Source: Candidatus Aquicultor sp.
GTDB lineage: Bacteria; Actinomycetota; Aquicultoria; Aquicultorales; Aquicultoraceae
Length of the DNA: 47,549 bases
Reading direction: 5' to 3'
Assembly (NCBI GenBank): GCA_030682615.1
Contig: JAUXNY010000082.1
Span: 1 to 47,549, forward strand
Below the pieces are notes generated by a model. That model had not been told where the DNA came from. It saw nothing but the letters and a program-made list of their open reading frames with translations, and made no database searches. Shown here piece by piece: positions 1-46,133 of this stretch (positions within the stretch are counted from its first letter, which is position 1; every line of letters starts with the position of its first letter). The translations under genes were made by a program, and so were the position numbers.

Positions 1-2553
1 GCAAAGACGGCCGGCGATATTGAGATAAAGGAAATCAAGCCGACTTCGCTCAAGTCCACCACATCGGCAAACGAGGTCACAGTAGAAATATTGACGCCGG
101 GAGTTTCTTTTGCGCAAACACCCAATGCTATGCCGGCAACATTGAAGCTGTCCAAACCAAACGCTATCTTATCCGCCGGCAACACGAAGGCAACATGGCA
201 TGTAAGCCAATCGACTACGACCACAGCGGGAAGCGTCATTCTCCGCGATATTAAATATAACGTCAGCTCATCGACAGTTTCCGGGCCGGTAGAGCTAAGG
301 CTGGGCGGAAACTCCGGCGTCACATCGGAGATAGTCAGCAACGCCAGCGTTCAGCCATCCTCGAGCCAGACGAGCTTCAAGTTCAATGTCACGGTTGTCG
401 ACACAGCGACCGGCGGCTCCTTAAACGGTGCCAGGGTGAGAATCCTCAAAGATGACGGTGTGCTCACACAGCTGTACAATCCGACTTCCGGGTCGTTTCA
501 ATTCGACCTGCCCGCCGGGGAGTACGGCATCTATATAACACGTCTCGGACACGAGGCCATCCGCACTACGATTGACATTAATGCGGAAACGGCTAGGACT
601 AGGACCTTCGGGCTTAATAAGACTGATATAGGTGTGATGGTGCCCGAAGGCGCCGCCAATATAGCTTATGAGCAGATTGAATCGCTATTACGGGACTTGG
701 GCTACCAGGTATCGGTCGTTACAGAAGATGACCTCGCGGACGCCGGACGACTGAAGGCTAATCTAAAAGCGCTCTTTATTAACTCGTCGACGGTAGACTT
801 TTCAAGCGGCAGCGTCTCGGCAATCAAAGAGTTTGTTCAGGCCGGTGGCTCGCTGTATACATCGGATATGTCGTTTAATCTGCTGAAAAACGCGTTCCCG
901 GGTAAAATCGTATTCGAGTCAAACCCATGGATTGGTCTTTCTCAAGATATTAACGCGGACATCAAAGATAAGGGGTTTGCGGACTATATAAACTCGGTAA
1001 ACTCGGCTGCGCCGCCTTCCAAGACCAACCTATATTTTAACGACCAGATGTCGCCCTGGGTCTCAATCTATAACGTTGAACCTGGGGTGGACGTTTATAT
1101 TTCCGGCAATATTAAAACAGGCGCAGGCGGCTCAACCGTCCTCAAAGATAAACCTCTGGTTGCGGGTTTTAACGAGGGGTTGGGACGCGTCGTCTACACC
1201 AGCTATTATGCAAGTCCTCAAAACGGCGCTACCGACGCAAACGGCCACAAGCTGCTCCGCTATATGGTCTTGAGCACGCTTGCGGGCAAGCATATCAATA
1301 GCCTGAAAACTCAGCTTGCGGATGATGGTTACACATTAAATAAGGTGAATGTCGGGTTGTTGAACTCCGGCGAGACATCTACCGCGTGCGGCATCACGGT
1401 CCCAACCGGAAAGGATGTCATCGTAAAGCTTGCCTGGCGGGACAGTAGCCAGAATGCATCGTACGGGTTGTCGGTTCGCCAACCGGATTCAACCTTGCGC
1501 GAAAAGACTGCAAATCAGTCTCCGGTAACTGTCGTGAGCGCGGATGCCCCAGACGGCTTCTGGACGTACCAGGTGAAAGCATTCGACGTGGGCGACGGGT
1601 ACCCGTATGTAGTGGCGACCGGGACAAGGGCCGCGACACCGCCGCCGGTTGACCCCGGTCCAAACCCGAGTGGCGGCAGTGGTAGTGGTGGCTCTTCTGG
1701 AGGCGGCAGCGATACAACGCAGGCAGTCCTGCCGAAGCCTACCGGTTTGAAGGCAGAGGCGGGGAATGGAAAGATAACGCTTACCTGGAACACCGCCTCA
1801 GCACAATCGTCGGCGCCGCAGATAGCCGGTTACAATCTCTACCGGGGAACCAAACCAACTGGCTTGGTGACACGAATCAATAGTACACCACTGACGACGA
1901 CATCATATTCCGACACAGCGGTCGAGCCGAACATCACCTACTATTACTGGGCGACGACAGTCGGCTTGGACGGCAAAGAAAGCGCGCGCTCCGACTACGG
2001 GTCAGTCTCGCTCACTGCGGTCTTGTCCGACCTTACATTTAACGATACTCCAGCAGCCGCCTGGTATATGGCCTATGTTAAAAAACTGGTCACGGCAGGT
2101 ATTATCGACGGTTACAGTGACGGTAGCTTCCGTCCGAACGCCAACATCACCCGAGCGGAGTTCTGCAAAATAGTATTGGCTGCGTTAGGCGAGGCCCCGC
2201 TGGGGAGTGCGGCTCAATCCTTTAAAGACACCGGCAGCCACTGGGCGCAAGGCCATATCGAAAAGGCAAAATCGCTAGGTTTTATTGATGGCTATAAGGA
2301 TGGGAACTTCCGTCCGGATGACAGTATCACCCGCGCCGAGATATGTAAGATGGTGGCGTATGCAAAACAATATCGTCTCGGGGAGCACCTCAACGTATTC
2401 CCGGACTGCAGCGGGCATTGGGCCGAGACATACATCGCGACCGCTAAAGAAAATGGCGTTGTCTCCGGTTTTCCGGATGGAACATTCCGCCCGTCAGCCA
2501 AGGCAACGCGCGCCGAAGCATCCAAAATGATATCAGTGATGATGGGGAAGTAG
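1..2553 (+). CDS. SLH-anchored multidomain surface protein (5' end outside window)
   Basis: The frame is open from base 1, so the N-terminus and any signal peptide lie upstream. Domains in order: a carboxypeptidase-regulatory-like beta fold (about 370-610); an alpha/beta region resembling a glutamine-amidotransferase-like fold (about 620-1290, with a GGSLYTSD-type strand-turn); a beta-sandwich (about 1300-1620); a Pro/Gly/Ser linker (about 1635-1715); a fibronectin type III domain (about 1735-2025); and three SLH repeats (2030-2550) with FRPNANITRAEF, FRPDDSITRAEI and FRPSAKATRAEA cores. SLH triplets bind pyruvylated secondary wall polymer, so this should sit on the cell surface. No catalytic motif is evident in the amidotransferase-like part, so a scaffold or adhesion role is inference. 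It is the first of six SLH proteins here. Stop is TAG at 2551. Confidence 0.85.
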   Translation, partial: AKTAGDIEIKEIKPTSLKSTTSANEVTVEILTPGVSFAQTPNAMPATLKLSKPNAILSAGNTKATWHVSQSTTTTAGSVILRDIKYNVSSSTVSGPVELRLGGNSGVTSEIVSNASVQPSSSQTSFKFNVTVVDTATGGSLNGARVRILKDDGVLTQLYNPTSGSFQFDLPAGEYGIYITRLGHEAIRTTIDINAETARTRTFGLNKTDIGVMVPEGAANIAYEQIESLLRDLGYQVSVVTEDDLADAGRLKANLKALFINSSTVDFSSGSVSAIKEFVQAGGSLYTSDMSFNLLKNAFPGKIVFESNPWIGLSQDINADIKDKGFADYINSVNSAAPPSKTNLYFNDQMSPWVSIYNVEPGVDVYISGNIKTGAGGSTVLKDKPLVAGFNEGLGRVVYTSYYASPQNGATDANGHKLLRYMVLSTLAGKHINSLKTQLADDGYTLNKVNVGLLNSGETSTACGITVPTGKDVIVKLAWRDSSQNASYGLSVRQPDSTLREKTANQSPVTVVSADAPDGFWTYQVKAFDVGDGYPYVVATGTRAATPPPVDPGPNPSGGSGSGGSSGGGSDTTQAVLPKPTGLKAEAGNGKITLTWNTASAQSSAPQIAGYNLYRGTKPTGLVTRINSTPLTTTSYSDTAVEPNITYYYWATTVGLDGKESARSDYGSVSLTAVLSDLTFNDTPAAAWYMAYVKKLVTAGIIDGYSDGSFRPNANITRAEFCKIVLAALGEAPLGSAAQSFKDTGSHWAQGHIEKAKSLGFIDGYKDGNFRPDDSITRAEICKMVAYAKQYRLGEHLNVFPDCSGHWAETYIATAKENGVVSGFPDGTFRPSAKATRAEASKMISVMMGK

Positions 2554-2574
2554 ATAACGCTGCTTCCTCATTAA

Positions 2575-2657
2575 AGCCCCCAGAATACGCGGCCGATACA
2601 AATACATGGGTATATTTGACAGTTATCATGTTTTAATCGGCTTTTCTGGGGGCTCAC
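2575..2657 (+). promoter_or_regulatory. Structured leader that would occlude the RBS of the next SLH gene
   Basis: An 11-bp perfect inverted repeat (2575-2585 with 2644-2654) encloses a second helix (2592-2597 with 2636-2641) and two small internal hairpins (around 2600-2617 and 2618-2632). The 3' strand of the outer stem contains the GGGGG at 2648-2652, the only Shine-Dalgarno-like sequence for the ATG at 2658. The fold would therefore hide the ribosome site. The pairing is read directly; regulation is inference. It does not match the c-di-GMP or c-di-AMP riboswitch signatures I know. Confidence 0.45.
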
Positions 2658-4301
2658 ATGTATAGAAAAACACTAATGCTTATTATTGCGCTAATCTGCG
2701 CCACCGTGCTGCTGTTCATCCCGTTTACGGCAAACGCCGGTTCGAACGGAAGCATATCCGGCAAGGCGTCTGCCGCCGGAACCGGAACGGCGATTCAGGG
2801 TATGTATGTTGAGGCCATGCCGGTAGATTCGAGCGGTAATTTTGACCCTGCGAGAAGCGGCACCTACAAGACCTTCACCAGCTCCGCCGGCGCCTACACG
2901 ATAGGTGGATTGCCGCCCGGTAGCTATAAAGTAATCATCAATGCCGCGCTTGCCCAAAACGATAACGCGCGTCAGTATATATTCCAGCTCTATAACGGCA
3001 AGCCTACTTGGGATGCCGCAGATATAGTAGAGGTCGAAGACGGTGTCGCCACCAACAACGTCGACGTATCGATGTACGTAGGCGGTAGAGTGACGGGTAG
3101 AGTGACGGGCGCTCCCGCGGCGACGGTTTTTGCCATACCGGTGCTCAACAGTGGCCTTCTCGATATCAACAGATATATGCGCCAGGCTTCAATCGACGCC
3201 TCGGGGAACTATACGGTAGTCGGTTTAGCGTCCGGCTATTATAAGGTTCAGGCCTACCAAATCGGCTATGCGGATGTGTATTATAACAACAAGACGGCGT
3301 TCGAAACGGCCGACAAGGTCTTTGTCGGCGCTCCAAACACCGTGCCCGGCATCGATTTTACTATGGTCGTCGGTGAGAGCGGCGGCGGGCCGGGTGGCGG
3401 TGCCGGTGAAGACGGCCCTGTCGGTGGTGGTGGAGCTGGTGGTGGCGGTGGTGGTGGCGGTGGCGGCGCAGACCCTGGAGACAAACCACCAGCGCCGACC
3501 GGCCTAAAAGCCTCGTATAAAGAGGGCAAGGTCACGCTTACCTGGAACTCAGTGACCGCAACCGGTCTCACCGGATATAATATCTACCGTGCCGAAGACA
3601 TCAAAGCGGCGGGCGCCAAGCTTAACCCGAGCGTCGCCGCCGCCGCCACGTATGTCGATGGCACGGTCGAAGGATTGAAGACCTACTATTATTACGTGAC
3701 AGCCGTAGCCGGCGGGTCGCTCGAAAGCGACCCCAGCGCCAGGGTAGAGCTCGTCATCGATGAGCTGCTCGAACCGGTCACCTTCAAAGACGTCGGACGC
3801 GAACACTGGGCCTATACCTTCATAGGCCGGCTGGCGGCGTTGAAGATAGTCAGCGGCTACAGCGACGGCACGTTTCGCCCCGGCAATAGTGTGACCAGGG
3901 CCGAGTTTGCGAAAATGATAGTCGTTGCCTCAGGCTGGCCGCTGGCGGCGCCTGCTTCACCTTCCTTCAAAGATGTTCCGGCGAGCCACTGGGCGTACGC
4001 GTATATAGAGACGGCAAAAGAGCACGGTGTTATCAGCGGCTATCCGGGCGGCGTCTTCAAACCCTCAAATAACATCAAGCGAGCCGAGATATGCGCGATG
4101 GTAGTCCGCTCGCAAGCATATCCTGTCGATAAGAGCGGCACCGCGTTCTCGGATATCAACTCGAGCCATTGGGCTTACGAGATGGTCATGACGGCCAAGA
4201 ATAAAAGCATAGTCGGCGGCTATCCGGGCGGCGTCTTCAAGCCGGACGGGCTTGCATCGAGGGCCGAGGCGAGCAAGATGATTTATTCGGTTATCCAATA
4301 A
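2658..4301 (+). CDS. SLH-anchored secreted protein with carboxypeptidase-like and FN3 domains
   Basis: This 547-residue protein has a clear signal peptide (Lys/Arg n-region, hydrophobic core, cleavage near ANA-GS). It continues with two carboxypeptidase-regulatory-like beta domains (about residues 30-110 and 140-225), a glycine-dominated linker (about 238-273), one fibronectin type III domain (about 275-365) and three SLH repeats (about 373-547; FRPGNSVTRAEF, FKPSNNIKRAEI, FKPDGLASRAEA). No enzyme active site is visible. It resembles the C-terminal half of the upstream SLH protein, suggesting duplication of an FN3-SLH module. The ATG follows GGGGG with a 5-nt spacer, and that GGGGG lies in the 3' strand of a long hairpin. 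A structural or adhesive surface role is inferred. Confidence 0.85.
   Translation: MYRKTLMLIIALICATVLLFIPFTANAGSNGSISGKASAAGTGTAIQGMYVEAMPVDSSGNFDPARSGTYKTFTSSAGAYTIGGLPPGSYKVIINAALAQNDNARQYIFQLYNGKPTWDAADIVEVEDGVATNNVDVSMYVGGRVTGRVTGAPAATVFAIPVLNSGLLDINRYMRQASIDASGNYTVVGLASGYYKVQAYQIGYADVYYNNKTAFETADKVFVGAPNTVPGIDFTMVVGESGGGPGGGAGEDGPVGGGGAGGGGGGGGGGADPGDKPPAPTGLKASYKEGKVTLTWNSVTATGLTGYNIYRAEDIKAAGAKLNPSVAAAATYVDGTVEGLKTYYYYVTAVAGGSLESDPSARVELVIDELLEPVTFKDVGREHWAYTFIGRLAALKIVSGYSDGTFRPGNSVTRAEFAKMIVVASGWPLAAPASPSFKDVPASHWAYAYIETAKEHGVISGYPGGVFKPSNNIKRAEICAMVVRSQAYPVDKSGTAFSDINSSHWAYEMVMTAKNKSIVGGYPGGVFKPDGLASRAEASKMIYSVIQ
3381..3470 (+). repeat. GGN trinucleotide tract encoding a glycine linker
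   Basis: The interval is almost entirely GGN codons, with a run of GGT/GGC from 3421 to about 3468. It encodes the flexible Gly-rich linker between the beta domains and FN3. Gain or loss of triplets would change linker length without breaking the frame. Confidence 0.75.
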
Positions 4302-4387
4302 TAATGTGGTATCTTTCTAAGTAACCAACCGTTTAATTATTTAGACGTAGCAAAATATGAAGTCTAGCCCCCATAAAGGAGACTCCA

Positions 4388-5485
4388 ATGCATCACAGCA
4401 AATATCGAATCAAGAGAAGCGCTTGGCTGCTATTTTTTACACTTAGTCTTATATTCGCTTTTGCAGCGCAGGCTGCGGCGGAAACCGTGATTCCCATCGT
4501 CTTTCCAGTAGAGGGCTCCTGCAGTTTTACGGATACCTTCGGCGCCCCCCGGGGCACGACGCGTACCCACGAGGGTATCGACATCATGGCGGCGAAGATG
4601 ACCCCCTTGGTGGCCGCAGTGGACGGTGTCGTATCGTGGCTCAACAACGGCGAGCAGACCAGCACCGCTAACGGCCTCCCATATTACAACCTCATGCTCA
4701 AGGGCGACGATGGCAACGCCTATTATTATGTTCACCTCAATAACGACATACCCGGAACCGATGATGGGATGGGTGGGCCGCAGAATGCCTATGCTCCCGG
4801 GATAGTCAACGGGTCGAGGGTGGCGGCCGGGCAGCATATAGCATACGTGGGGGATAGTGGAAATGCCGAGGAATCGGGTTCGCACGTTCATTTCGAAATC
4901 CACCAGGGCGGCTACAAGAATCCGATCAACCCGTATCCGTCGCTGATGGCCGCCAAGGCCGGCCTCTTCAAAGACATCGGGACGGACGACTGGTGTTTTC
5001 AGTATATCTTCTCGCTCGTCAAAAAAGGTGTGGTCACCGGCTATGGCGACGGGACTTTCAAGCCGACGAGCGCGGTCACGAGAGCCGAGTTTATTAAGAT
5101 GGTCGTCACGGCGAGCGGCATAGATACGCTTACTGTGCATAATGGATATTTTCCCGATGTCTCATCCGCGCACTGGGTCTCGCCTTATGTCGAAGCCGCT
5201 AAAGAATCGAACATAATCAGTGGTGATGCGGCCGGCAATTTCAGGCCGGATGTGATCATAAACCGTGCCGAGGCCGCTGAAATCGTCGTCAATGCGGCAG
5301 GTGCCAACGAGAACGCGTCCGGGGATCTCTTCTCGGACGTAGCATCTGATTTTTGGGCGTATGTTCCGATAATGACCGCGCGCAATTCCGGTATTATCAA
5401 CGGATATCCGGACGGAACGTTCCGTCCGACCGGCAACGCCAGCCGAGCCGAGTCTACCAAGATAATCTTCTCGATATGCCCGTAA
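4388..5485 (+). CDS. SLH-anchored M23 (LytM-type) metallopeptidase
   Basis: A 365-residue secreted protein. A signal peptide (residues 1-32, ending AQAAA-E) is followed by an M23 domain (about 40-190) and three SLH repeats (about 193-365). The zinc motifs are intact: H61-x3-D65 (THEGIDI) and H166-x-H168 (HVHFE). M23 enzymes cut peptide cross-links in peptidoglycan, so this is predicted to be a wall hydrolase held at the surface by its SLH domains. A good SD (AAAGGAG, 4376-4382) precedes ATG 4388. The leader has competing 5-bp pairings, AGTCT pairing either with upstream AGAC or with AGACT next to the SD. Confidence 0.9.
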   Translation: MHHSKYRIKRSAWLLFFTLSLIFAFAAQAAAETVIPIVFPVEGSCSFTDTFGAPRGTTRTHEGIDIMAAKMTPLVAAVDGVVSWLNNGEQTSTANGLPYYNLMLKGDDGNAYYYVHLNNDIPGTDDGMGGPQNAYAPGIVNGSRVAAGQHIAYVGDSGNAEESGSHVHFEIHQGGYKNPINPYPSLMAAKAGLFKDIGTDDWCFQYIFSLVKKGVVTGYGDGTFKPTSAVTRAEFIKMVVTASGIDTLTVHNGYFPDVSSAHWVSPYVEAAKESNIISGDAAGNFRPDVIINRAEAAEIVVNAAGANENASGDLFSDVASDFWAYVPIMTARNSGIINGYPDGTFRPTGNASRAESTKIIFSICP

Positions 5486-5521
5486 CTACAGGCCGGCTGA
5501 GCCCGTTATAACAAAGGAGCG

Positions 5522-5531
5522 GTCTATAGAC
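5522..5531. promoter_or_regulatory. Perfect 10-bp palindrome GTCTATAGAC
   Basis: This self-complementary decamer lies just after an AAAGGAG sequence in the 190-bp gap before the CAP-SLH gene. It could be a protein-binding site. A 24-codon reading frame opening with ATA also starts inside it, but nothing else supports translation there. Confidence 0.2.
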
Positions 5532-5638
5532 AGGCGCTTGCACAATAAGTCAAGGGCTTTACTATTTGTGAGAACTATGCAATCCTTAGACTTGCTGAAA
5601 TAATAGCCGTACCAATAGTCGCAGTTTAAGGCATACTT

Positions 5639-6673
5639 ATGGAAGCAGCCGTTTTCGTAGCAAAGGAGGAAACGATTATTAATCGAATAATCACCGCTTT
5701 GGTTATGCTGCTCATCTTATCGATTGCCTCTCCGTCTACAGCCACCGCAGCGACCTTTGAAGAGCTTGCGCTTCTCGATTTGATAAACGATTACAGGGCG
5801 AGTAAAGGCCTTGGAGAGCTGGTTCTTTCAGAACGGTTGACGCAAGCCGCTGCCGGCCACAGCCTCGATATGGCCTCAAAAGATTATTTCTCTCACAAAT
5901 CTTTGAACGGCGCTAGCTTTTCCGATCGGATAGAAGCGGCTGGTTATACCTATAGCACTGCCCTCGGCGAGAATATCGCCGGCGGTCAATGGAGGGCGGC
6001 CGATGCTTTTGCGGGCTGGAAATCGTCACCCGGTCATAATACCATCATGCTCAGTAAGGCCTATAAGGCGGTCGGGCTAGCCAGGGCATACGACACCGAC
6101 GCTAAATACCAATGGTACTGGACGGCTGATTTCGGCGGCGTGGTCGACACGTCGGTGCGGGCCGCGGAGTATTCCGAGGCCGACAATTGGGCCTATGAAT
6201 ATATCCAATGGTTGATCAAGCAGGGCATGCTATCGGGCTATCCCGATGGGTCGCTCCGTCCGGAAAATCCTATCACACGCGCCGAGTTCTCGACGCTGGT
6301 CGCGAAATCATTTAAAATAAGCGCCGGCGGGAGCAAGACCTTCCGCGACACGAAAAGACATTGGGCCAAGGACTATATCGCGGCCCTTGCCGACCTAGGC
6401 TATATCTCGGGATACGTCGACGGCTCTTTCCGTCCTGACGGCCTTATCACACGCGCTGAGATGGTGAAGATGCTTACTGGGGCCGGCGGGTTGAGAGCGC
6501 GGGCGGGCGCGCCGAATTTTTCAGATGTGAGTAACCACTGGGCCCGGGATTATGTTGCGATAGCGGCATCGAACGGGATTGTAAACGGGTATGCCGACGG
6601 CAAGTTCAAGCCGGACGCCAGTTGCCTGCGCGCGGAGACCGCCACCTGCGTCTATAGGATGGTAAACAACTAA
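5639..6673 (+). CDS. SLH-anchored CAP/SCP (PR-1-like) domain protein
   Basis: A secreted protein with a signal peptide (core LVMLLILSIA), a CAP domain (about residues 38-170 from ATG 5639) with typical HSLDMASKDYFSHKS and LGENIAGG signatures, and three SLH repeats (about 180-344). Such bacterial CAP domains are common in surface and spore proteins of Gram-positives; the activity is undefined. Start choice is open. ATG 5639 has only AAGG upstream and gives an n-region with two acidic residues. AAAGGAGG at 5662-5669 sits 5 nt before ATT 5675, which would give a much more normal signal peptide. The stop codon overlaps the stop of the convergent glycosidase gene by 4 bases. Confidence 0.85.
   Translation: MEAAVFVAKEETIINRIITALVMLLILSIASPSTATAATFEELALLDLINDYRASKGLGELVLSERLTQAAAGHSLDMASKDYFSHKSLNGASFSDRIEAAGYTYSTALGENIAGGQWRAADAFAGWKSSPGHNTIMLSKAYKAVGLARAYDTDAKYQWYWTADFGGVVDTSVRAAEYSEADNWAYEYIQWLIKQGMLSGYPDGSLRPENPITRAEFSTLVAKSFKISAGGSKTFRDTKRHWAKDYIAALADLGYISGYVDGSFRPDGLITRAEMVKMLTGAGGLRARAGAPNFSDVSNHWARDYVAIAASNGIVNGYADGKFKPDASCLRAETATCVYRMVNN
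5662..5677 (+). promoter_or_regulatory. Strong RBS in front of a possible AUU start
   Basis: AAAGGAGG (5662-5669), spacer AAACG, then ATT (5675-5677). It is in frame with the CAP-SLH protein and directly ahead of its signal-peptide core. The ideal spacing suggests initiation at AUU rather than at ATG 5639. Confidence 0.4.
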
Positions 6674-8349
6674 TACCACAGCAGCGCATTGTTTATCGCG
6701 CGTTCACCTTTGCCCTCGTTGGGGTAGTTGCGCACAGCCCCGTTGAAGTAGAGGGTGCTAGAGCCCCCGCCATCGAGGCTCATGGCATCGATGGCTCCAT
6801 GATACTTTATTTCTTCGGCCAGCTCCGCCAGGGTCATCCCCACGCTATAGAAGCTCATCCGTCCGTCGACCACGAGGATAATGAGATTGCCTTGCGGGTC
6901 GATGCCTATCGCGGTTCTCGGATGCCGCTTTGAGACGATGCTCGACTCGAATCCTTCGTTTTCGACGCTTACCTGGCCGTCCCTCATAAGACGAGGACCT
7001 CCGCCGATAGCTTTGGTGTCGTCGCGCCAGGATGGCTTAAGATTGAAATTGAGCCTGACTGTCGCGCCTATCCAAATGTTATTGGTCAGGAAGGTCTTAC
7101 CCGAGCCGATTCCCGAGAGGACTATACTGTCGAGCGGGATGGCTTTGTTTCCCGTGCCGTACCTGACGTCTACAACCGTTCCGATTATCTCGCTGCCCGG
7201 AGTAACCGTTTTGTTGATTCGCAGCTCGACTTCGGTGCCGTTGCTGTTGGTCAGTGTCGACGGACCGTAAAAAGGCGTGTATGCGACTATAGTGTCTTTG
7301 GAGGGCACCATGTCGCGAGCCTTGTTTACCCACGCTATGACGCCGGTTTTCTCGACGCCGCTTGTCGTCTCGAACGTGAGCGACGCATCGAGAGACGCCC
7401 TATCTATAAAGGTGCTTCGGTCGCTCGAGAAGCCGAAGTGTGACCGCTCGTTGATAGGGGAGGAGAGTATCTGCCCGTCAACAAGGAGCCCGCTACAACC
7501 ACTCTTGCTGTCGCTCGAGAAGAAATCGGCGTTAATGCCCGCGATCGCGTTCTTGCGTTTGGCGAGTGAGCTTAACCGTTCGAGACCCAGGAACCTGTCC
7601 TTGCCGAGCCCCAGGTTGGTAGCGGCTGAGGCATATTTGGGAATCCTCAACACATGAATACTGAAAGGACCCGAATTTTGAAAGCGGCGGTGTTTTTCGT
7701 ATGTTATCTCATTAACTGCTGAGGTTTGGATGACGAAGTCTTTGCCGACGAGGGAACGGTATATAAGCGCGGCGGCTTCAGCCCTGGTAATAGGTGCGTT
7801 TGGATGGAACGTGCCGTCCGGATAACCCGTAATTATGTAGTTCTTGGCGGCGGCCTCGATGTACGGTTGGCCCCAATAGGCGCTTGCCACATCGGTAAAT
7901 GAATTGGTGGAGATACTCGCGATAGAATAGCCTTTTGCTTGGACGAGAATCTTTGCTACTTGCGCCCTGGTGGTGGCGTCGTCGGGGCGAAATGTCTCAT
8001 CGGGGAACCCGTTCATCCAGGTCGCTCCGATGGTTTTGGAGATAAACTGAGCCGCCCAGTGGTCACTGGACAGGTCGTTAAAAGCTATAGAACCGGTCGC
8101 TTGTTTAAGCAGAAACGCTTCGGACAGAAGTTTTGCAAGCTCGCCCCGGCGCAAACCGTCCGCCGGCCTGAACCGGCCGTCTTCGCCGCCCCTGATTATA
8201 CCGTGGTCGGCGAGCGAGAGAATTTGTTTGGCGGCCCAATAATCTTTGTCGACGTCTGAAAAAGAGCTGCCGGGCGCGGCGAATGCCGCCGGCGTGAAGC
8301 TCAGTATTAGGGTTGTAAGCAGTGCTATTGCGAAAATCGTTCGCCTCAT
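6670..8349 (-). CDS. SLH-anchored phosphodiester glycosidase (NAGPA/DUF2233) family protein
   Basis: A 559-residue secreted protein read leftwards. A signal peptide (ending AAFA-AP) is followed by three SLH repeats at the N-terminal side (about residues 28-200) and a C-terminal phosphodiester glycosidase domain (about 255-559). Family signatures are visible: GINADFFSSDS, RTAIGIDPQGN and the closing SLDGGGSSTLYFNG. Human NAGPA uncovers mannose-6-phosphate; bacterial relatives are thought to act on cell-wall glycans or teichoic-like polymers. A role in trimming surface glycopolymer is therefore inference. It is the only SLH protein in this cluster with its anchor at the N-terminus and the only one on the minus strand. 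Start ATG 8349 has AAAGGTG upstream. Confidence 0.88.
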   Translation of the reverse strand: MRRTIFAIALLTTLILSFTPAAFAAPGSSFSDVDKDYWAAKQILSLADHGIIRGGEDGRFRPADGLRRGELAKLLSEAFLLKQATGSIAFNDLSSDHWAAQFISKTIGATWMNGFPDETFRPDDATTRAQVAKILVQAKGYSIASISTNSFTDVASAYWGQPYIEAAAKNYIITGYPDGTFHPNAPITRAEAAALIYRSLVGKDFVIQTSAVNEITYEKHRRFQNSGPFSIHVLRIPKYASAATNLGLGKDRFLGLERLSSLAKRKNAIAGINADFFSSDSKSGCSGLLVDGQILSSPINERSHFGFSSDRSTFIDRASLDASLTFETTSGVEKTGVIAWVNKARDMVPSKDTIVAYTPFYGPSTLTNSNGTEVELRINKTVTPGSEIIGTVVDVRYGTGNKAIPLDSIVLSGIGSGKTFLTNNIWIGATVRLNFNLKPSWRDDTKAIGGGPRLMRDGQVSVENEGFESSIVSKRHPRTAIGIDPQGNLIILVVDGRMSFYSVGMTLAELAEEIKYHGAIDAMSLDGGGSSTLYFNGAVRNYPNEGKGERAINNALLWY

Positions 8350-8639
8350 GATATCACCTTTTATTGGGGTTTTGCTCGAATCCGGTCTAAACTTCGGAAA
8401 AAGGGATTATGCCGGCTCACAGCGGTATGTGCCGGATAGAGCACTTAGCTATGTCAGATGACATGGTAACACTATAAGACGATAAATTCAATTATTAAAT
8501 AACGCAAACATGATACTAACAATGAAGGTGCCCTATTGCTTAGACCCGTCTTTTATCTTACCATTGGACTGCGATATATGTTAGAATCTTTACATTTATA
8601 GTTGCAGCTTTATTACGTCGTAGTTTAGGTGGTTGATTG
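8350..8639. other. Divergent intergenic region between two SLH genes
   Basis: This 290-bp gap separates the glycosidase gene (minus) from the subtilase gene (plus), so promoters for both should lie here. It contains a perfect dyad ATGTCA-GA-TGACAT (8451-8464) and two direct TGCCGG copies (around 8410 and 8430) on the glycosidase leader side. I see no convincing -35/-10 pair and no gene. Confidence 0.35.
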
Positions 8640-10778
8640 ATGGGCTTTCTACATAGCGAGAATTTGCGCAAGACCGCTTTCTTCGTAAGCTTCTTTCTAA
8701 TACTGTCCTATCTGAACCTGTCCATTGCGGCGGTTGGGGCAAATCCTGCGGGCAACACCGGATACACGCCGGACGCGGGCGTGAGCGAGAGTGCGCATGC
8801 GAAGCGCGTCAGCGCGGCCTCTGCGGGTGCCGCCAGGCCCGACGAACTTTTAGTTCGCTTTAAAGCCGGTGTCGACCAGGCGGCAGCCGATGCGCTTCAC
8901 AGAGAAGTCGCCGCCCGCCCATTGTCGATTATCAAAAAACTCGATATCGCGCGAGTGTTTATTGAGAGTGGCACAGTCGACGAGGCGGCCCACTATTATA
9001 TGGAGAGCGGCCTGGTCGAGTTCGCGGAACCCAATTACAGAAGGACAGCGACTGATTTTATACCAAACGACCCGCTCTACGCCGACCAGTGGGGCCTGTC
9101 CAAGATAGGCATGGGTAAGGCGTGGGAGTTAGCGGGATCGGCTCAGACGCAGGTAAAAGTCGCCGTACTCGATACGGGAGTCGATCCGAACCACGAGGAC
9201 CTCAAAGACTCGCTGGCAATAAATACATCCAACGGCGGCAAGGTCTTAGGTAAACGCTTTTTTGTCGATGGGAGTGGAAAACAGGGGAGCGACGACAATT
9301 TTACCGATGAAGCGGGCCATGGGACACATATCAGCGGGATTATCGCGGCCAAGACCAACAACTCGCTAGGGGTCGCGGGGATAGCCTCGACGGCCAGGAT
9401 AATGCCGGTGAAAGTATTGGACGATATAGGTTTCGGCGATGATGGGAGCATCGCGCTGGGCTTGATGTGGGCGGCGGACAACGGCGCGCGAATCATCAAT
9501 ATGAGCTTGGCCGGGCCGACGCCGTCAAAAACACTTGGTGAAGCGGTCAAGTACGCGCAAGGCAAAGGCGCGCTTATCGTGGCGGCTACCGGCAACGACG
9601 GGAGCGGCACGCCCAACTACCCGGCAGCCTACGAAGGTGTTATCGGGGTGGGCGCGGTAGACAGCAAAGACGCATGGATTCACCAGTCCAATTTCGGGCA
9701 GCATGTCGATGTCGTCGCGCCCGGTGTATCTATCCTGTCGACCTTTCTGGCGTCAAAATCTTATGATGGACAGGCCTATGAGGCGAATAGTGGTACTTCG
9801 ATGGCGACCGGAGTTGTGAGCGGGCTCGCCGCGCTTTTACTCGCTATCAACCCGGCACTCACACCCGAACGCGTTGAGGGCATCATAGACGTGAGCGCGG
9901 ACGACCTAGGTGCCGCCGGCTGGGACCGCTACTATGGACACGGGCGCATAAATGCCGGCGAAGCGGTTCAGATAAGCACAATCAGCACGAAACCGGCGGT
10001 AACGATTGTCTCCCCGGCGAACAACACGCAAATCACCAAATCGATTATGCCGGTTTCAGCGAATGCGTCTTCGGCAAATGCCGGAATCGCTTTCGTCGAG
10101 TTTTACCTTAACGGCGTTCGGCAAGGCACCGTGGTCGCGCCGCCGTATGTCTTCAACGTCAACACGGGCGACTTGTTCGGCAAGAATACGATAAAAGCGC
10201 AGGCTTATGACGAGAACGGCAATACCGCAAGCGCCGAGATAACCTGCTATAAGCAGACCTTCTCCGATGTGGGAGCGGAGTACTGGGCATTTGAGGACAT
10301 CGAAACGCTTGCTTCGGAAAAAGTTCTTGCCGGTTATCCGGGAGGTATTTTCATGCCCACCAAGGCGGTCGGCCGGGCGGAATTCGTCAAGATGCTCGTT
10401 GAATCCCTCGGGTTTTCTAAGAAGTCCTCTTACAGCGGTTATTTCAAGGATGTTTCATCCGCGCACTGGGCATGGCCGTATATCGAGGCGGCGTATGATT
10501 TGGGAATGATAAGCGGTTACGGGGAGAACCTCTTCCAGCCCGAGGCGCAGATAAAACGCGTGGAAATGGCCGCGATGCTCTTGCGCAGCGGGGCCTATTC
10601 GCTCGATTACTCGGGGACTACCTTTAACGATGTATCGCCCGGGCATTGGGGGTTTGTTTCGGTTATGTCGGCCCGCAATGCATCTGTCATCACCGGTTAT
10701 TCCGGGAATTACTTTCGACCGGAGCAGGCGATGAGCAGGGCGGAAGCGGCACGGGTCATCAAGAACGCACTGTATTAG
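8640..10778 (+). CDS. SLH-anchored subtilisin-like serine protease (S8)
   Basis: About 712 residues: signal peptide, an I9/fervidolysin-like propeptide (about 60-135, PDELLVRFKAG ... EFAEPNY), an S8 catalytic domain (about 145-440), an Ig-like beta domain (about 450-540) and three SLH repeats (about 541-712). The triad is complete: D178 (VLDTGVD), H227 (GHGTH) and S387 (GTSMA), with oxyanion Asn in AATGND. Predicted to be a surface-displayed protease that may process other wall proteins or degrade extracellular protein. ATG 8640 is chosen because AGGTGG (8627-8632) stands 7 nt before it; a TTG one codon upstream is possible. It is transcribed divergently from the glycosidase gene. Confidence 0.92.
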   Translation: MGFLHSENLRKTAFFVSFFLILSYLNLSIAAVGANPAGNTGYTPDAGVSESAHAKRVSAASAGAARPDELLVRFKAGVDQAAADALHREVAARPLSIIKKLDIARVFIESGTVDEAAHYYMESGLVEFAEPNYRRTATDFIPNDPLYADQWGLSKIGMGKAWELAGSAQTQVKVAVLDTGVDPNHEDLKDSLAINTSNGGKVLGKRFFVDGSGKQGSDDNFTDEAGHGTHISGIIAAKTNNSLGVAGIASTARIMPVKVLDDIGFGDDGSIALGLMWAADNGARIINMSLAGPTPSKTLGEAVKYAQGKGALIVAATGNDGSGTPNYPAAYEGVIGVGAVDSKDAWIHQSNFGQHVDVVAPGVSILSTFLASKSYDGQAYEANSGTSMATGVVSGLAALLLAINPALTPERVEGIIDVSADDLGAAGWDRYYGHGRINAGEAVQISTISTKPAVTIVSPANNTQITKSIMPVSANASSANAGIAFVEFYLNGVRQGTVVAPPYVFNVNTGDLFGKNTIKAQAYDENGNTASAEITCYKQTFSDVGAEYWAFEDIETLASEKVLAGYPGGIFMPTKAVGRAEFVKMLVESLGFSKKSSYSGYFKDVSSAHWAWPYIEAAYDLGMISGYGENLFQPEAQIKRVEMAAMLLRSGAYSLDYSGTTFNDVSPGHWGFVSVMSARNASVITGYSGNYFRPEQAMSRAEAARVIKNALY

Positions 10779-10819
10779 CCTGAGCGAGCTGTGGAATCAG
10801 GTTAAACGTTTCTGTCTCT

Positions 10820-11698
10820 TTAAGGGTTATCGGATGCGTTGGGCAGCTTTACGGTGACGGTTCTGAGGTTGGTGTTCCAGGAGACCTGAGCACCTAGACA
10901 CTCGGCGATGAACCGTAAGGGGACAAAGGTCGCGCCCGCCTTCATCGATGGCATGACATCCAAGATGACGGGCTCACCGTTGATAATGGCTACATTGTCG
11001 CCGACTGTAAGCTGGATGTTGACACCGTTGTGGTCAATGGTTATTAAGTTGCTCGCACTATCCCACACTACGGCAGCGCCGAGCTCTTCAAAGAATTTTC
11101 TAATCGGCACCAACGTGCGCCCTTGACGGATAAACGAAGGGGGGTCGGCGCAGAGCAGTTTGTCGTTGATGTAGACGAGCAGGTCGTAATTGGGGTCGCG
11201 CGATACGAAAAACATGCTCTTGGGATAGGCGATGAATTCTTGCGCGAACATCTTACCGTACGGGCCGCCATCGACCGCGCCGATGCCGACGTGCGTATAC
11301 TTTGCCTCCAGCATGTTCGCCTTATGTGTCGGGCTCTCCATGAGTCCCTTAAACGCGGCCTCTACCGAGGGTGCGCCTGCGAGGTTTTCGCCTGCAAGGA
11401 GCCATCCATCGGAGACACCGGATGCTAGAACCCGGTCGAGCAAAGACCCTGAAACCGGAGAATCATGGCTGAAGAAGTCGTGCGTTATCATCTCTTGGCC
11501 GTAACGGCGGGCCATGAAAGTGAGTTTAGGGTCGACTTCGAGTGCGTTTAGGCCGTTGGTGCGACGCTCTTTGTTGACGAGGTTGAGCATGTATTGCTCA
11601 TCGGCGGTCAGGCTGACAGCGCCCGCAGCTCCAACCGCTAGAGATGATATCAAAACTATCAGTGCTGCGATTAGAGCGATACGTGCCTTAAACCTCAT
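10820..11698 (-). CDS. Secreted CAP-domain protein with copper amine oxidase N-terminal-like repeats
   Basis: About 292 residues. A signal peptide (ending AGAVS) is followed by a CAP/SCP domain (about 30-160; LDRVLASGVS, AGENLAGA, ESPTHKANML) and a copper-amine-oxidase-N-like module (about 180-285) with the two usual motifs, RTLVPIRKFFEELGA and ATFVPLRFIAECLGA. That module is common on surface proteins of anaerobic Gram-positives and is thought to bind wall. It has no oxidase chemistry. This looks like an alternative anchoring solution for the same CAP cargo seen on an SLH anchor earlier in the cluster. ATG 11698 is preferred over an upstream in-frame ATG (11737) because an AGAGGA site precedes it and it gives a normal signal peptide. 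Confidence 0.82.
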   Translation of the reverse strand: MRFKARIALIAALIVLISSLAVGAAGAVSLTADEQYMLNLVNKERRTNGLNALEVDPKLTFMARRYGQEMITHDFFSHDSPVSGSLLDRVLASGVSDGWLLAGENLAGAPSVEAAFKGLMESPTHKANMLEAKYTHVGIGAVDGGPYGKMFAQEFIAYPKSMFFVSRDPNYDLLVYINDKLLCADPPSFIRQGRTLVPIRKFFEELGAAVVWDSASNLITIDHNGVNIQLTVGDNVAIINGEPVILDVMPSMKAGATFVPLRFIAECLGAQVSWNTNLRTVTVKLPNASDNP

Positions 11699-11991
11699 TA
11701 CAATCGTCCTCTCGACAAGCTTTTGCGAATCGTTCATGCTTTTCAGGGTATGTGCGCCGCCTGCAAAACTCGCGCGGCCGGCTCCGGTTTTATCCGACGC
11801 GCAAGCGAATGATATTGCTACAGTTATATATCGGTTCTAGAGGTAGCGACTTTAATGGGAGTTGCGAGCCGACAAAAACCACCCCGCTATTTTAAGGGTG
11901 CTGCTAAAAAGGGGCGCAAAGTGAACCCTCTTTTGATAAGATTATTGAGTCGAACGAAGCGCTGACATGATTGTTGCAGTCTAAGGTAGTT
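11699..11991. other. Divergent intergenic region before csaB-tagA
   Basis: The roughly 290-bp gap lies between the minus-strand CAP protein and the plus-strand csaB-tagA gene and must contain both promoters. I could not identify a convincing promoter pair, terminator or small gene. The right end supplies TAAGGT before ATG 11992. Confidence 0.3.
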
Positions 11992-13737
11992 ATGAAAAAT
12001 GTACTGATTTCAGGATATTACGGGTTTGGCAATACGGGTGATGAAGCGATACTCTCGTCGATGGTCACGTCGCTCAAGAGTGAAGTGCCCAACGCTGAGA
12101 TCACCGTTGCTTCGAACCGTCCTTTTGAAACAGAGGCCAAGTATGGAGTCAAAGCTATTCCACGCTCGGTCGGTTCGGTGCGCCGAGCCTTAAAGAAGAG
12201 CGACCTTTTTATCAGCGGGGGCGGCGGGCTCCTGCAAGATGTCACCAGCGTCCGAAGCCTAGTTTACTATTGCTCGCTTCTATTGCTGGCGCGTCTTGAG
12301 CGCGTTCCTATAATGATTTACGGGCAAGGAATAGGCCCGCTGAACAGATATTTTAGTAGATTTCTCACCAAATTGGCGATATCGGGCGCGAACGTGATTG
12401 CGGTACGCGACGAAGGCTCGAAAAAAATTTTACAAGAGATGAGAGTCCGTCGCGAAGTGGTCGTCACCGGCGACCCGGCGCTCCTTCTCAAGCCGGTACG
12501 GATGTCGAGGCTTAATGGATTGGACCGGCCTATCGTAGGTTTCGCCCTGCGGGCTTGGCGCGGCATAGAGTTCGGGCGCGTAGCCGCCGCCGCCGACAGT
12601 ATCAAGGCGCGCACGGGGTCGAGTATCGTGTTCATTCCATTTCATGCGAAGCGAGACGACTCGGTGGCCAAGCAGATAGTGGCAAGGATGAAAGAGCCGG
12701 CGACTGTTATCGATGGTATCGAGCTGCCGGCGGAGGTCATGGGTGTCATCGGTGAGTTGGATGTCCTGGTGGGGATGCGCCTTCACTCCAATCTCTTTGC
12801 CGCGCTCCAGGGTATCCCGTTTCTTCCGGTAGCTTACGACCCTAAAGTCGACGAATTTTCGAAAGCTGTCGGTGCTCACGCACCTTTAGCCTGCCGCGAC
12901 CTCGATGAGCAAAAACTCGTCCCCGAAGTCGAGCGGCTCTTGGCGCTCGACGGTAACTGGGGCTATTCGATTGAAGAGGCGCGCGGCAAAGCGAGGCAGA
13001 ATGCGTTGCTCGCGAAACAACTGTTGAAGGAGCGCTACATTCTAGGGGTTCGCTTCGACGCTTTCGAGATGGATGAGGCGATAGCGGCGATAGAGGACCT
13101 GATAAAAGAGCGCAAACCGCATCTCATCGTCACTCTCAATGCCGAGATGATGGTCATGGCCAAGAAAGACGATGCGTTTAGAAAGGTCTTGCAGGGCGCG
13201 CATCTTGTGGTTCCCGACAGCATTGGAATAGTATGGGCGGGCAAGCTGCGGACGCGTGTTCCGGGCATCGATATGATAGAGGAAATGGCGAAAGTAGCCG
13301 TGCGCAAGGGCTACCGTATATACATGGTCGGCTCCGAAGAAGGGATCGCCCGAGAAGCCGCGCTAAAATTACAGGAGCGTTATCCAGGTCTCAATATCGT
13401 CGGCATCGAGAGCGGCTTTTTCTCCGTTAAAGAGGAATCCGGTCTCGTCGAGCGGATTAGGCAAGCAGGGCCGGATATCCTGCTGGTCGGCTTGGGCATG
13501 GGCAAACAGGAGAAATGGATTGCCGAGCATTTGCGCCAGCTCGGTGTCCCCGCGTGTGTCGGTGTCGGGGGGAGTTTTGACGTCATAGCCGGTCAGGTAA
13601 AACGCGCGCCTGAATGGGTGAGGCACGCCGGTTTGGAGTGGCTCTACCGGTTCGTTCAGCAACCGACGAGATTTAAAAGGATTTTGGCTCTGCCGAAATT
13701 TGTCTACCTCGTCATACGCGAGCGGGGCTTGATGTAG
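11992..13737 (+). CDS. csaB: Fused polysaccharide pyruvyltransferase CsaB and WecG/TagA glycosyltransferase
   Basis: This 581-residue protein holds two enzymes. Residues 1 to about 340 match CsaB: SGYYGFGNTGDEAIL start, ISGGGGLLQD, MIYGQGIGPL and a late MRLHSNLFAA motif. Residues about 345-581 match the WecG/TagA/CpsF (GT26) family: LNAEMMVMA, VVPDSIGIVWAG, VGLGMGKQEKWI and GVGGSFDVIAG. CsaB adds pyruvyl ketals to the wall polymer bound by SLH domains. TagA-type enzymes transfer N-acetylmannosamine in linkage-unit synthesis. Fusing them in one chain beside six SLH proteins strongly suggests synthesis of their anchor. ATG 11992 follows TAAGGT; an upstream TTG (11971) is less likely. murJ follows 49 bp later. 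Confidence 0.92.
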   Translation: MKNVLISGYYGFGNTGDEAILSSMVTSLKSEVPNAEITVASNRPFETEAKYGVKAIPRSVGSVRRALKKSDLFISGGGGLLQDVTSVRSLVYYCSLLLLARLERVPIMIYGQGIGPLNRYFSRFLTKLAISGANVIAVRDEGSKKILQEMRVRREVVVTGDPALLLKPVRMSRLNGLDRPIVGFALRAWRGIEFGRVAAAADSIKARTGSSIVFIPFHAKRDDSVAKQIVARMKEPATVIDGIELPAEVMGVIGELDVLVGMRLHSNLFAALQGIPFLPVAYDPKVDEFSKAVGAHAPLACRDLDEQKLVPEVERLLALDGNWGYSIEEARGKARQNALLAKQLLKERYILGVRFDAFEMDEAIAAIEDLIKERKPHLIVTLNAEMMVMAKKDDAFRKVLQGAHLVVPDSIGIVWAGKLRTRVPGIDMIEEMAKVAVRKGYRIYMVGSEEGIAREAALKLQERYPGLNIVGIESGFFSVKEESGLVERIRQAGPDILLVGLGMGKQEKWIAEHLRQLGVPACVGVGGSFDVIAGQVKRAPEWVRHAGLEWLYRFVQQPTRFKRILALPKFVYLVIRERGLM

Positions 13738-13786: not shown

Positions 13787-15373
13787 ATGAGCAAAGGCAG
13801 GGCGCTTGCGCTCTCGGCGGGCATAGTGACTATCGCAACGCTTTCGGGTCGCATATTCGGCTTCGTGCGCGAGATGGTCATTGCCAACAAGTTTGGAGCC
13901 GGCGCCGAGACCGATGCGTTTATCGTCGCGTTCACCATCCCTAATATAATCTACAGCCTCGTCGTCATGGGCGCGCTGAGTGCCTCGTTTATACCGGTAT
14001 TCAGCGGGTTGCTCGCCAACGACGATGAAGAAGAAGCGTGGCGCCTCGCGCATACGATTCTCAACCTTTTACTGATTGCCTTCGGCTTTGTCGCGGCGGC
14101 ATTGATGGTCTTCGCGCCGCAGGTAGTCTTTCTAGTCTCCCCGGGCTTTGGCTCCTCAGGCGAACAGCTTGCGCTGGCGTCGAACCTGTTGCGCATAATG
14201 GCCCCGGCGCTCATATTCCTTGGCATATCCGGATTGATGGCGGGGACGCTTAATTCATATAACCATTTCGCCACACCGAGCCTGGTCGCGCTCGTGCAAA
14301 ACGTTATAATGGTCGCGGCTATTATCTTTCTGGCGCAACGGATGGGCATCTACGCCGCCGCCATCGGGTTTCTTGCGGCTTCGGTGTGCCAAGTGCTAAT
14401 TCAGCTGCCGGCGCTGTTGAAGCGAAGATTGCCGTATCGTGCGGTGCTGGATTTGCGCAGCGAGCGCGCAAAGAGCGTCGCCAAACTATTCTTGCCGGTG
14501 CTGGTTGCTCTGGCCGCCAGCCAGTCGAATCTTATCGTCGACAAGTGGTTTGCGTCGTTTCTTGAGACCGGGAGCATATCTTATCTCAATTACGCGTTCA
14601 AAGTGGGCAGCTTGCCGTTGAACACGCTCGTCGCGGCTATCGCCATCGTCTTGTTCCCGACGCTTTCCCGGCAGGCCGCTATGCGAGACATGGAAGCGCT
14701 GCGCAACACGATATCGCTCGGCGTTCGCATTATCGCGATGGTTGCGGTACCGGCATCGGTCGGTCTTTTTGTCTTAAGCAAACCGATAATAGGTCTTCTA
14801 TTCGAGCATGGGGCGTTCGGGCCGACCGCGACGGTCGCGACTGCGGCGGCGCTTGCCGCGTACTCTTTCGGCCTGGTCGCTATGGGTCTTAATATGCTGC
14901 TCGTGCGGTCGTTTTACGCGCTCCATGACGGCATGACGCCGCTCAAGGCGTCGCTCGTCTTTATAGTCGTACTGGTAGTGCTCGATATAGTTCTCGTGCG
15001 CCCGTTGGCGCACGTCGGTCTCGCTCTTAGCTATACAATCGCTGTGAGTGTCATGGCCTTGGTCATGCTGGGCGCGCTTAGAAAGCGCCTCCAGGGCTTG
15101 GATGAGGCAAAGCTTATAGTGTCTTTCGCGAAGACTGCCTTGGCGGCGGTAGTGATGGGAGTGGGGGCGTGGTTTACGGCGTCCTACCTGAGTGCAACGC
15201 TTGCCGGCGATACTAAGCTTGCCGAGTTGATGGTAGTAGGGATTGCGATAAGCGTAGGCGCTCTTCTGTATCTTGGTGTATTGGTTCTGGCTCGGGCCGA
15301 GGAGATAGCGATGATCCGGCGGCTGATTCGCGGCAAAATCTCGGGCAAGCAGGTCGCCGCGGACAACGTTTAA
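13787..15373 (+). CDS. murJ: Lipid II flippase MurJ
   Basis: A 528-residue, almost wholly hydrophobic protein with about 14 predicted membrane spans, the usual MurJ/MVF size and pattern. The N-terminal region has the family signature SGRIFGFVREMVIANKFGAG followed by ETDAFIVAFTIPN. MurJ moves lipid-linked peptidoglycan precursors to the outer face of the membrane; some members may move other polyprenyl-linked units. SD GAGGAG (13773-13778) precedes ATG 13787. Its position directly after csaB-tagA suggests co-transcription of wall-polymer and peptidoglycan functions. Confidence 0.93.
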   Translation: MSKGRALALSAGIVTIATLSGRIFGFVREMVIANKFGAGAETDAFIVAFTIPNIIYSLVVMGALSASFIPVFSGLLANDDEEEAWRLAHTILNLLLIAFGFVAAALMVFAPQVVFLVSPGFGSSGEQLALASNLLRIMAPALIFLGISGLMAGTLNSYNHFATPSLVALVQNVIMVAAIIFLAQRMGIYAAAIGFLAASVCQVLIQLPALLKRRLPYRAVLDLRSERAKSVAKLFLPVLVALAASQSNLIVDKWFASFLETGSISYLNYAFKVGSLPLNTLVAAIAIVLFPTLSRQAAMRDMEALRNTISLGVRIIAMVAVPASVGLFVLSKPIIGLLFEHGAFGPTATVATAAALAAYSFGLVAMGLNMLLVRSFYALHDGMTPLKASLVFIVVLVVLDIVLVRPLAHVGLALSYTIAVSVMALVMLGALRKRLQGLDEAKLIVSFAKTALAAVVMGVGAWFTASYLSATLAGDTKLAELMVVGIAISVGALLYLGVLVLARAEEIAMIRRLIRGKISGKQVAADNV

Positions 15374-42321: not shown

Positions 42322-42664
42322 GGGGGCGACAGGCTTCGACTGAGGTTGGTTTCGGCAAGAGAAGCGAGTCGAGCTCAGACAACTCGTTAAACTATCTGAC
42401 AAAAAACAAACGCAAACGAACCAATTGCACTAGCCGCTTAATTGTGGCTCGTCAAACTAGAGATTGCTCACATCTCTAGGGCGACGTCATCATAGTGAGC
42501 TCACTTCACCCGGACGCCCATAGGGGTTGAAGAAAATCTTATGGGATAGCGACCAGTTTACCCTGACTGTGGGGATGCCGGAAGCGAATAACAAACATAG
42601 TCTACACTCGTAGATGCTCTTGTGGAAATGCCTGAGGACGTGGGTTCGATTCCCACCGCCTCCA
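42322..42664 (+). ncRNA. ssrA: Transfer-messenger RNA (tmRNA)
   Basis: The 5' end GGGGGCGACAGGCTTCGAC and the 3' end, with T-arm GTGGG-TTCGATT-CCCAC and acceptor CGCCTCC, pair as a tRNA-like domain. The CCA is not encoded. The tag frame starts at GCA 42412 and reads ANEPIALAA followed by TAA (42439-42441), a typical degradation tag ending in ALAA. Pseudoknot-rich sequence fills the rest. It rescues ribosomes on broken mRNA together with SmpB. Confidence 0.97.
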
Positions 42665-42665
42665 C

Positions 42666-45900: not shown

Positions 45901-46133
45901 TCAGAGAGCTGAGAGCCGGAACCGAAGACGCGGCAATCGCCACCGCGATTATAACGGTCGCGCACACGATGAAGCTGAAGGCGCTTGCGGAAGGCGTCGA
46001 GACTTTGGAGCAGCTGGAGCTCTTGAGGTCGCTCAAGTGCGATAGCATGCAAGGCTTTGTCTTCAGCCGCCCCGTACCCGCCGAAGAAGCGTCCAAAATA
46101 TTGGGCGATGAGCGCCAGATTCGCGTAGCTTAG
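42915..46133 (+). CDS. Multi-PAS diguanylate cyclase/phosphodiesterase (GGDEF-EAL)
   Basis: A 1072-residue cytosolic protein without membrane spans. Five PAS-type sensor domains (about 1-130, 145-260, 268-380, 390-505, 515-630) precede a GGDEF domain (about 636-800) and an EAL domain (about 815-1065). GGDEF is intact at 720-724, with an inhibitory RxxD site at 711-714. EAL is intact at 848-850 (EALIRW), as is the [13 protein letters not shown] loop. Both synthesis and breakdown of c-di-GMP are therefore possible. The fifth PAS has a Cys cluster ([16 protein letters not shown]) that may bind metal or sense redox. TTG 42915 follows AAGGGAG. A LexA-box promoter lies upstream. Confidence 0.95.

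Follow-up and report, generated by a model that had tools for sequence, protein, structure and literature searches.

A conserved island of SLH genes with enzyme cargo beside a CsaB-TagA fusion gene in Candidatus Aquicultor

Genes of the locus and extent of the island

Candidatus Aquicultor (Actinomycetota) is a groundwater bacterium belonging to an uncultured class. The window, meaning the whole stretch of DNA analysed, covers bases 1 to 47,549 of contig C153 in a 2.14 Mb genome of 153 contigs (G000:C153), and its csaB-tagA gene is 97% identical to the counterpart in Candidatus Aquicultor primus. The genes at the left end of the window are as follows.

1..2553, + strand: P1, SLH protein (Pfam), 5' end cut off at the contig start; 850 aa visible, of which aa 679-845 form the SLH triplet
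2658..4301, + strand: P2, CarboxypepD_reg repeats and a C-terminal SLH triplet (Pfam), 547 aa
4388..5485, + strand: P3, M23 endopeptidase with SLH triplet, 365 aa; zinc motifs HxxxD and HxH kept
5639..6673, + strand: P4, CAP domain with SLH triplet, 344 aa; the triplet that was modelled
6670..8349, - strand: P5, N-terminal SLH triplet with NAGPA phosphodiester glycosidase domain, 559 aa
8637..10778, + strand: P6, subtilase (S8, Fervidolysin prodomain, Big_7) with SLH triplet, 713 aa
10820..11737, - strand: P7, CAP with Cu_amine_oxidN1, no SLH, 305 aa; between the SLH genes and csaB-tagA
11971..13737, + strand: P8, CsaB-TagA fusion, 588 aa, TTG start; CsaB at aa 11-303, TagA/WecG at aa ~356-585
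13787..15373, + strand: MurJ-family flippase, 528 aa, in the same direction as P8
15490..16311, + strand: purine nucleoside phosphorylase-like (PNP-like) gene, right flank of the island; named from its translation, not from a family search

An earlier note on this DNA had described six triple-SLH proteins and a CsaB-TagA enzyme at positions 1-13737. Pfam indeed places three SLH stretches in each of P1 to P6 (6/6 proteins), and P8 matches TIGR03609 and PF03808. The protease, M23, CAP and NAGPA cargo named in that note is recovered as Pfam domains in P6, P3, P4 and P5, respectively; the motifs DTG/HGTH/GTSMA (S8), HEGID/HVH (M23) and DGGGSS (NAGPA), which we take to be the catalytic motifs of P6, P3 and P5, are all kept. 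On the other hand, the designation of two further proteins as scaffolds was a guess: P1 contains no Pfam domain except SLH (its homologue in G002 has 1090 aa), and P2 carries CarboxypepD_reg repeats. Nor do the SLH genes lie directly before csaB, because the gene of the non-SLH protein P7 intervenes. The genes of P4 and P5 converge with a 4-base overlap, and the remaining gaps from P1 to MurJ measure 41-287 bp. A single operon was rejected because P5 and P7 lie on the minus strand; the locus is thus an island and not one operon or transcript. A cotranscribed csaB-tagA-tagO-SLH operon is likewise not what is found here, since the strands are mixed and no tagO occurs among the window proteins scanned.

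In the comparison with relatives that the earlier note had proposed, the gene order is conserved in four genera of the family, g1, g2, g4 and g6. Occasional members are missing: no NAGPA gene was recognised in the G008 stretch, and the G010 contig, which begins inside the island, has neither an M23 nor a CAP-SLH gene. In both G002 and G008, the contig extends upstream into a block with genes for an SLH-SpoIID, an SLH-amidase and one further SLH protein, and this block matches contig C9 of the window genome gene by gene; in G002, the left and right flanks lie ~39 kb apart. By this synteny, the island of the window genome probably continues on contig C9 (SLH amidase, SLH SpoIID), the join between C9 and the window being inferred, and probably spans ~40 kb with at least nine SLH genes. 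The island reported at 1-13737 exists, but it is larger than that interval and its first protein is truncated. Genes for PMT_2-type mannosyltransferases lie inside the island in G008 and G004 (L076:1578-3182, 8812-10347; L078:9043-10557) and are absent in the window.

The genome encodes 18 SLH ORFs, of which 6 lie in the window and a further 3 on contig C9. The six in the window lie no more than 12 kb upstream of the genome's only PS_pyruv_trans gene, a clustering with a binomial P of ~5e-10 against random placement, a crude null that ignores tandem duplication. The description of the island as self-contained went too far: half of the genome's SLH genes are located elsewhere, to judge by the contigs, and no TagO, MnaA or wall-ligase gene was found among the 19 window proteins scanned. 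One of the SLH proteins elsewhere, cut by a contig edge (L091:2-946; G000:C50), has a C-terminal D-glucuronyl C5-epimerase domain, an unusual SLH cargo. Other parts of the window hold two overlapping HD_5 (HD-GYP-like) genes at 23201-25727, the first of which matches MASE9 weakly, and a gene for a PAS-GGDEF-EAL protein at 42915-46133, which together are cyclic di-GMP-type signalling genes, as well as a tmRNA gene with the tag peptide ANEPIALAA at 42322-42665.

SLH triplets and the CsaB-TagA fusion

In SpaA of P. alvei, each groove for 4,6-Pyr-ManNAc is built by Trp13, Gly29 and Arg43 from three different SLH domains, and this pattern is proposed as a predictor of working grooves (PMC6081394). 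In the window, Trp13, Gly29 and Arg43 are all present, in circular order, in 18/18 SLH repeats; consequently, all 18 grooves are predicted to bind. Repeats without the polymer-binding residues, which the earlier note had counted against its own reading, do not occur in this set. The Trp/Gly/Arg set is typical of SLH domains generally and is a weak discriminator, so the residue check serves as a consistency test and not as proof. Among the other SLH proteins of the genome, 25/26 repeats carry the three residues and one has Ser at position 29, a count of regular-expression repeats that leaves out protein C50 entirely, part of the Pfam repeats elsewhere and the short C96 ORF. The SLH triplets in and near the window share 31-58% mutual identity, except for one close orthologue.

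Structure prediction of SLH triplets, another check put forward earlier, was applied to that of P4. The AlphaFold2 model (18 sequences) has a pLDDT of 90.4 and is closest to the SLH structures of Sap and SpaA (3pyw, 6bt4, 7sv4; TMq 0.77-0.83), and many of the Sap/SpaA structures matched are ligand complexes. Towards the SLH of OmpM1 the score drops sharply to a weak similarity (E 0.13).

The CsaB half of P8 scores 290.1 bits with TIGR03609 against an equivalog cut-off of 213.1, so that the genome's one PS_pyruv_trans gene is above the CsaB cut-off, and the TagA half matches the WecG/TagA glycosyltransferase family PF03808 with 207 bits. In TagA of T. italicus, Asp65 is catalytic, and roles are described for Thr37 and for Arg214, Arg221 and Arg224 of the C-terminal appendage in the available part of PMC6493773. 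The TagA half keeps all of these residues as well as Asn39; the equivalents in the fusion are D416 (catalytic Asp65), T388 (Thr37) and R560, R567 and R570 (appendage arginines), and the model of this half superposes on 5wb4 with a TMt of 0.94. In the CsaB half, an R-x-H motif (MRLH) and a Lys 20 residues on correspond by motif and spacing to R306, H308 and K328 of P. alvei CsaB, and the equivalent of P. alvei R148 was placed, by eye only, at R146; no CsaB crystal structure was matched in the sequence search of solved structures. Both halves look catalytically intact, the CsaB half tentatively so.

In the alignment, the CsaB C-terminus passes straight into the TagA N-terminus, and in the model of the fusion (pLDDT 87.6) a single helix at aa 335-353 leads into the first TagA strand. 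In P. alvei, TagA and then CsaB act successively on the lipid-linked precursor, according to the portion of PMC6030368 at hand, and a fusion of the two is therefore chemically sensible. CsaB above the cut-off is found in 9/36 genomes of the class, and all 9 cases are frames of 583-604 aa that also hold a WecG match. The phylum sample of 296 genomes contains only 8 such CsaB proteins, again from these Aquicultoria; these counts refer to CsaB matches above the cut-off within Actinomycetota, and weaker matches in longer frames and other phyla lie outside them. No CsaB-TagA fusion is described in the titles or abstract beginnings of the csaB/TagA/SLH papers listed, and in the parts of PMC6030368 and PMC6801904 available, the word 'bifunctional' is absent and 'fusion', where used, carries another sense. 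The two consecutive polymer-building enzymes are joined in one protein, which could lend itself to direct expression and assay.

Linkage across the class and loss in a sister genus

SLH proteins occur in 12/36 genomes of the class, and a CsaB-family match is present in all of them (12/12); class genomes without SLH proteins contain such a match in 2 of 24 cases (G006 and G011), both under the cut-off. In the phylum sample, 32 of the 296 genomes have at least 5 SLH matches, and each of these 32 also contains a CsaB-family match, which is weaker than E 1e-30 in 7 of them; the other 264 genomes have one in 50 cases. Genomes of the phylum with 1-4 SLH matches contain a CsaB-family match in 7/35 cases and none in 28/35, which implies that a few SLH domains do not predict CsaB. 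Many of the matches in these phylum counts are weak and the genomes are related, and the binomial and Fisher values ignore this relatedness.

Within the class, the CsaB homologue has an SLH gene no more than ~5 kb away in 10/10 testable genomes; of the 12 SLH genomes, this count leaves out G003 and G009, where the contig ends first. SLH genes scattered in relatives with no link to csaB, which the earlier note had named as evidence against itself, were thus not encountered. The linkage is also present in two other families of the class (G035 and G026-G028), and G035, G026 and G027 each have an S8-SLH gene close to the CsaB gene. In G035 (L097:4823-10824; G035:C6), a gene for a 602-aa CsaB-TagA fusion stands on one strand with an S8-SLH gene and a DUF5693 gene, overlapping the S8-SLH gene downstream by 32 bases and the DUF5693 gene upstream by 56 bases. 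In G026-G028, the CsaB homologue is unfused and under the cut-off, and a WecG gene is absent from the genome. The unfused CsaB gene of G027 (L098 and L099; G027:C2) lies beside glycosyltransferase genes, a Wzt_C ABC exporter and an ABC2 membrane protein, with SLH genes nearby. Two distinct polymer systems within the class thus seem to have SLH genes linked to them.

The genus g3 (G005, G006 and G007; 97-100% complete) has zero SLH matches and zero CsaB matches above the cut-off. The island flanks, namely the C9 336-aa left gene and the PNP-like right gene, are separated by 1.9 kb in G005 and by 8.5 kb in G006, with neither csaB-tagA nor murJ between them; in G007 the flanks are on two contigs. 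When outgroups are included, the tree of the other MurJ copy nests g3 in the family and has the fusion-bearing G009 branching first; in an unrooted tree built from four flank proteins, g3 stands next to G009. The two trees differ in detail, and by both of them loss in g3 is simpler than repeated gain; the locus behaves as a unit that the sister genus lost. With the 12/12 co-occurrence, the 10/10 testable linkage and the polymer-binding residues in every window repeat, this loss supports the earlier proposal that the SLH set and the predicted anchor-making enzyme belong together. G006 as a maker of the polymer was considered and rejected: the PS_pyruv_trans and TagA-like genes on its contig C15 are only 21% and 32% identical to the fusion halves, and their cluster also contains genes for Wzy_C and a bacterial sugar transferase.

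In a MurJ tree that omits further G007 fragments, the island MurJ copies group in a separate clade, which contains 0/5 g3 copies. The same lineage provides the best MurJ of SLH-less families, e.g., that of G033, so MurJ is at most a candidate for a dedicated exporter of the polymer.

Four proteins are still encoded at the island locus in G006: SpoIID, 51% identical to the C9 orthologue across 400 aa; one amidase, 56% identical across 194 aa; another amidase, 43% identical across 197 aa; and the CAP protein, 59% identical to that of G002 across 174 aa. No SLH was found in the SpoIID or in either amidase. In the position of the SLH domains, these three proteins (L166:8465-13401; G006:C1:42465-47401) have in common a 67-aa domain, whose other two copies are 43% and 27% identical to the first, and a Lys/Arg-rich stretch. 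This basic module has a pI of 11.0-11.8 (about 11-12) and a net charge of +30 to +33; the SLH triplets of the Aquicultor amidase and SpoIID have a pI of 4.9 and a net charge of -4 to -5. The module has no meaningful match in Pfam (E up to 5) or among solved structures (PDB sequences), and the NCBIfam search (E up to 1) picked up nothing beyond the amidase part and chance matches. Against plasmids, the best 5 of 11 records align residues 130-197, beside or in the amidase part. By eye, the strand/helix pattern resembles SPOR domains; no SPOR family was matched. Among 336 ORFs in 335 kb of G006, the module is confined to its 3 source proteins, and it occurs in 0/104 ORFs in 103 kb of G005 and G007 and in 0/395 ORFs in 461 kb of SLH-bearing genomes.

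One tentative reading, to which we give somewhat less than an even chance, is that wall enzymes at this locus switched anchors in the sister genus after CsaB-TagA was lost, with the basic module as the replacement. This exchange is read from one genome, G006, because these enzymes are missing from the G005 locus and that of G007 runs into contig edges. If true, the module would be a previously undescribed type of wall-anchoring domain, and the locus would preserve in nature an anchor swap that followed the loss of the anchor polymer. As a natural knockout, g3 shows which cargo enzymes persist there when SLH anchors are absent, and it points to a replacement module; the purpose of the SLH anchor is thereby testable on orthologous enzyme pairs from Aquicultor and g3. 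The CAP protein beside csaB carries Cu_amine_oxidN1 in the SLH-bearing genera, and only the CAP domain is present in g3 (L166:5387-6037, L167:6388-6972); the Cu_amine_oxidN1 domain may therefore depend on the polymer too.

Proposed mechanism and comparison with known systems

Based on the results presented above, the locus is likely a surface-display island, in which the fusion would make a pyruvylated polymer and the SLH triplets would hold cargo enzymes on the wall. The chemistry of the polymer, the role of MurJ, the surface location of the proteins and the activity of their cargo, as we infer them, would fit together in the following way. ManNAc would be added to undecaprenyl-PP-GlcNAc by the TagA half and then given a 4,6-pyruvate ketal by the CsaB half of the same membrane-associated polypeptide. 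Export of the lipid-linked unit would fall to a flippase, for which the neighbouring MurJ is a candidate, and enzymes encoded elsewhere would fix the polymer to peptidoglycan. The SLH triplets, those of the six island proteins as well as those encoded elsewhere in the genome, would then grip the pyruvylated end, and the protease and wall-remodelling enzymes would be kept on the wall non-covalently.

The domains, residues, conserved gene order, co-occurrence and co-loss seen in the genomes also bear on two other explanations. Under plain tandem duplication, csaB would be a neighbour kept by inertia in one family, with no functional coupling. SLH genes are numerous in the family (16-71 SLH repeat matches per SLH-bearing genome), and the divergence among the triplets noted above is what an old expanded family would give. 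However, the linkage recurs in the families of G035 and G026-G028, in the latter with an unfused CsaB; the cargo domains differ and their gene order is held across genera; and SLH and CsaB-TagA are jointly absent in g3. Duplication without coupling is thus improbable, and still less credence is due to the view that the SLH proteins bind peptidoglycan or another polymer directly, in the manner of OmpM, with CsaB-TagA making an unrelated teichoic-acid-like or capsular polymer. That SLH domains can work without CsaB is known from OmpM of diderm bacteria, according to the available part of PMC10628300, and the 28 SLH-poor phylum genomes that have no CsaB-family match are in keeping with this; direct binding nevertheless sits poorly with the P4 model, a covalent triplet of Sap/SpaA fold with weak likeness to OmpM1 SLH, with the pyruvate-binding set in all grooves of all six proteins, and with the joint occurrence and joint loss of SLH and CsaB. 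A surface-display island therefore remains the preferred reading. The earlier observation was right apart from small corrections, and the interpretation attached to it is partly supported, being right in its core and too strong in the word self-contained.

The closest known counterpart is the csaB-tagA-tagO-slhA-spaA locus of P. alvei, in which CsaB and TagA are likewise encoded with SLH genes, TagA and CsaB act successively on a lipid-linked precursor, and SLH triplets bind pyruvylated ManNAc, according to the parts of PMC6801904 and PMC6030368 available. There, csaB and tagA are separate genes in one transcript with tagO, whereas Aquicultor has a single fused gene, no tagO among the window proteins scanned, mixed strands and mostly enzyme cargo. 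Bacillota csaB/tagA pairs (L048, L049 and L054) have the same order and are 35-50% identical to the fusion halves, but they are two genes 6-9 bp apart; no SLH genes were recognised by a regular-expression scan in 13-22 kb around them. The csaB cluster of B. anthracis encodes S-layer proteins. In the available portion of PMC6801904, this S-layer cluster likewise brings CsaB and SLH-anchored surface proteins together, and it also encodes polymer O-acetylation and Wzy-like functions. In Aquicultor, by comparison, csaB and tagA form one fused gene, and most of the cargo consists of enzymes.

The combination of SLH anchoring and CsaB is best known in Bacillota. CsaB-dependent SLH anchoring and csaB-tagA-SLH clusters were already known from P. 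alvei and B. anthracis (PMC6801904, in the part available), and the matches listed for the Aquicultor, Aquicultoria and OPB41 literature include no paper on this locus. As far as literature searches show, the CsaB-TagA fusion, the hydrolase-rich Aquicultoria island and the loss in a sister genus, with a possible exchange of anchors, are new. In comparison with the known systems, the locus is a conserved hydrolase-rich SLH/CsaB island in an uncultured class of Actinomycetota, outside the usual Bacillota setting.
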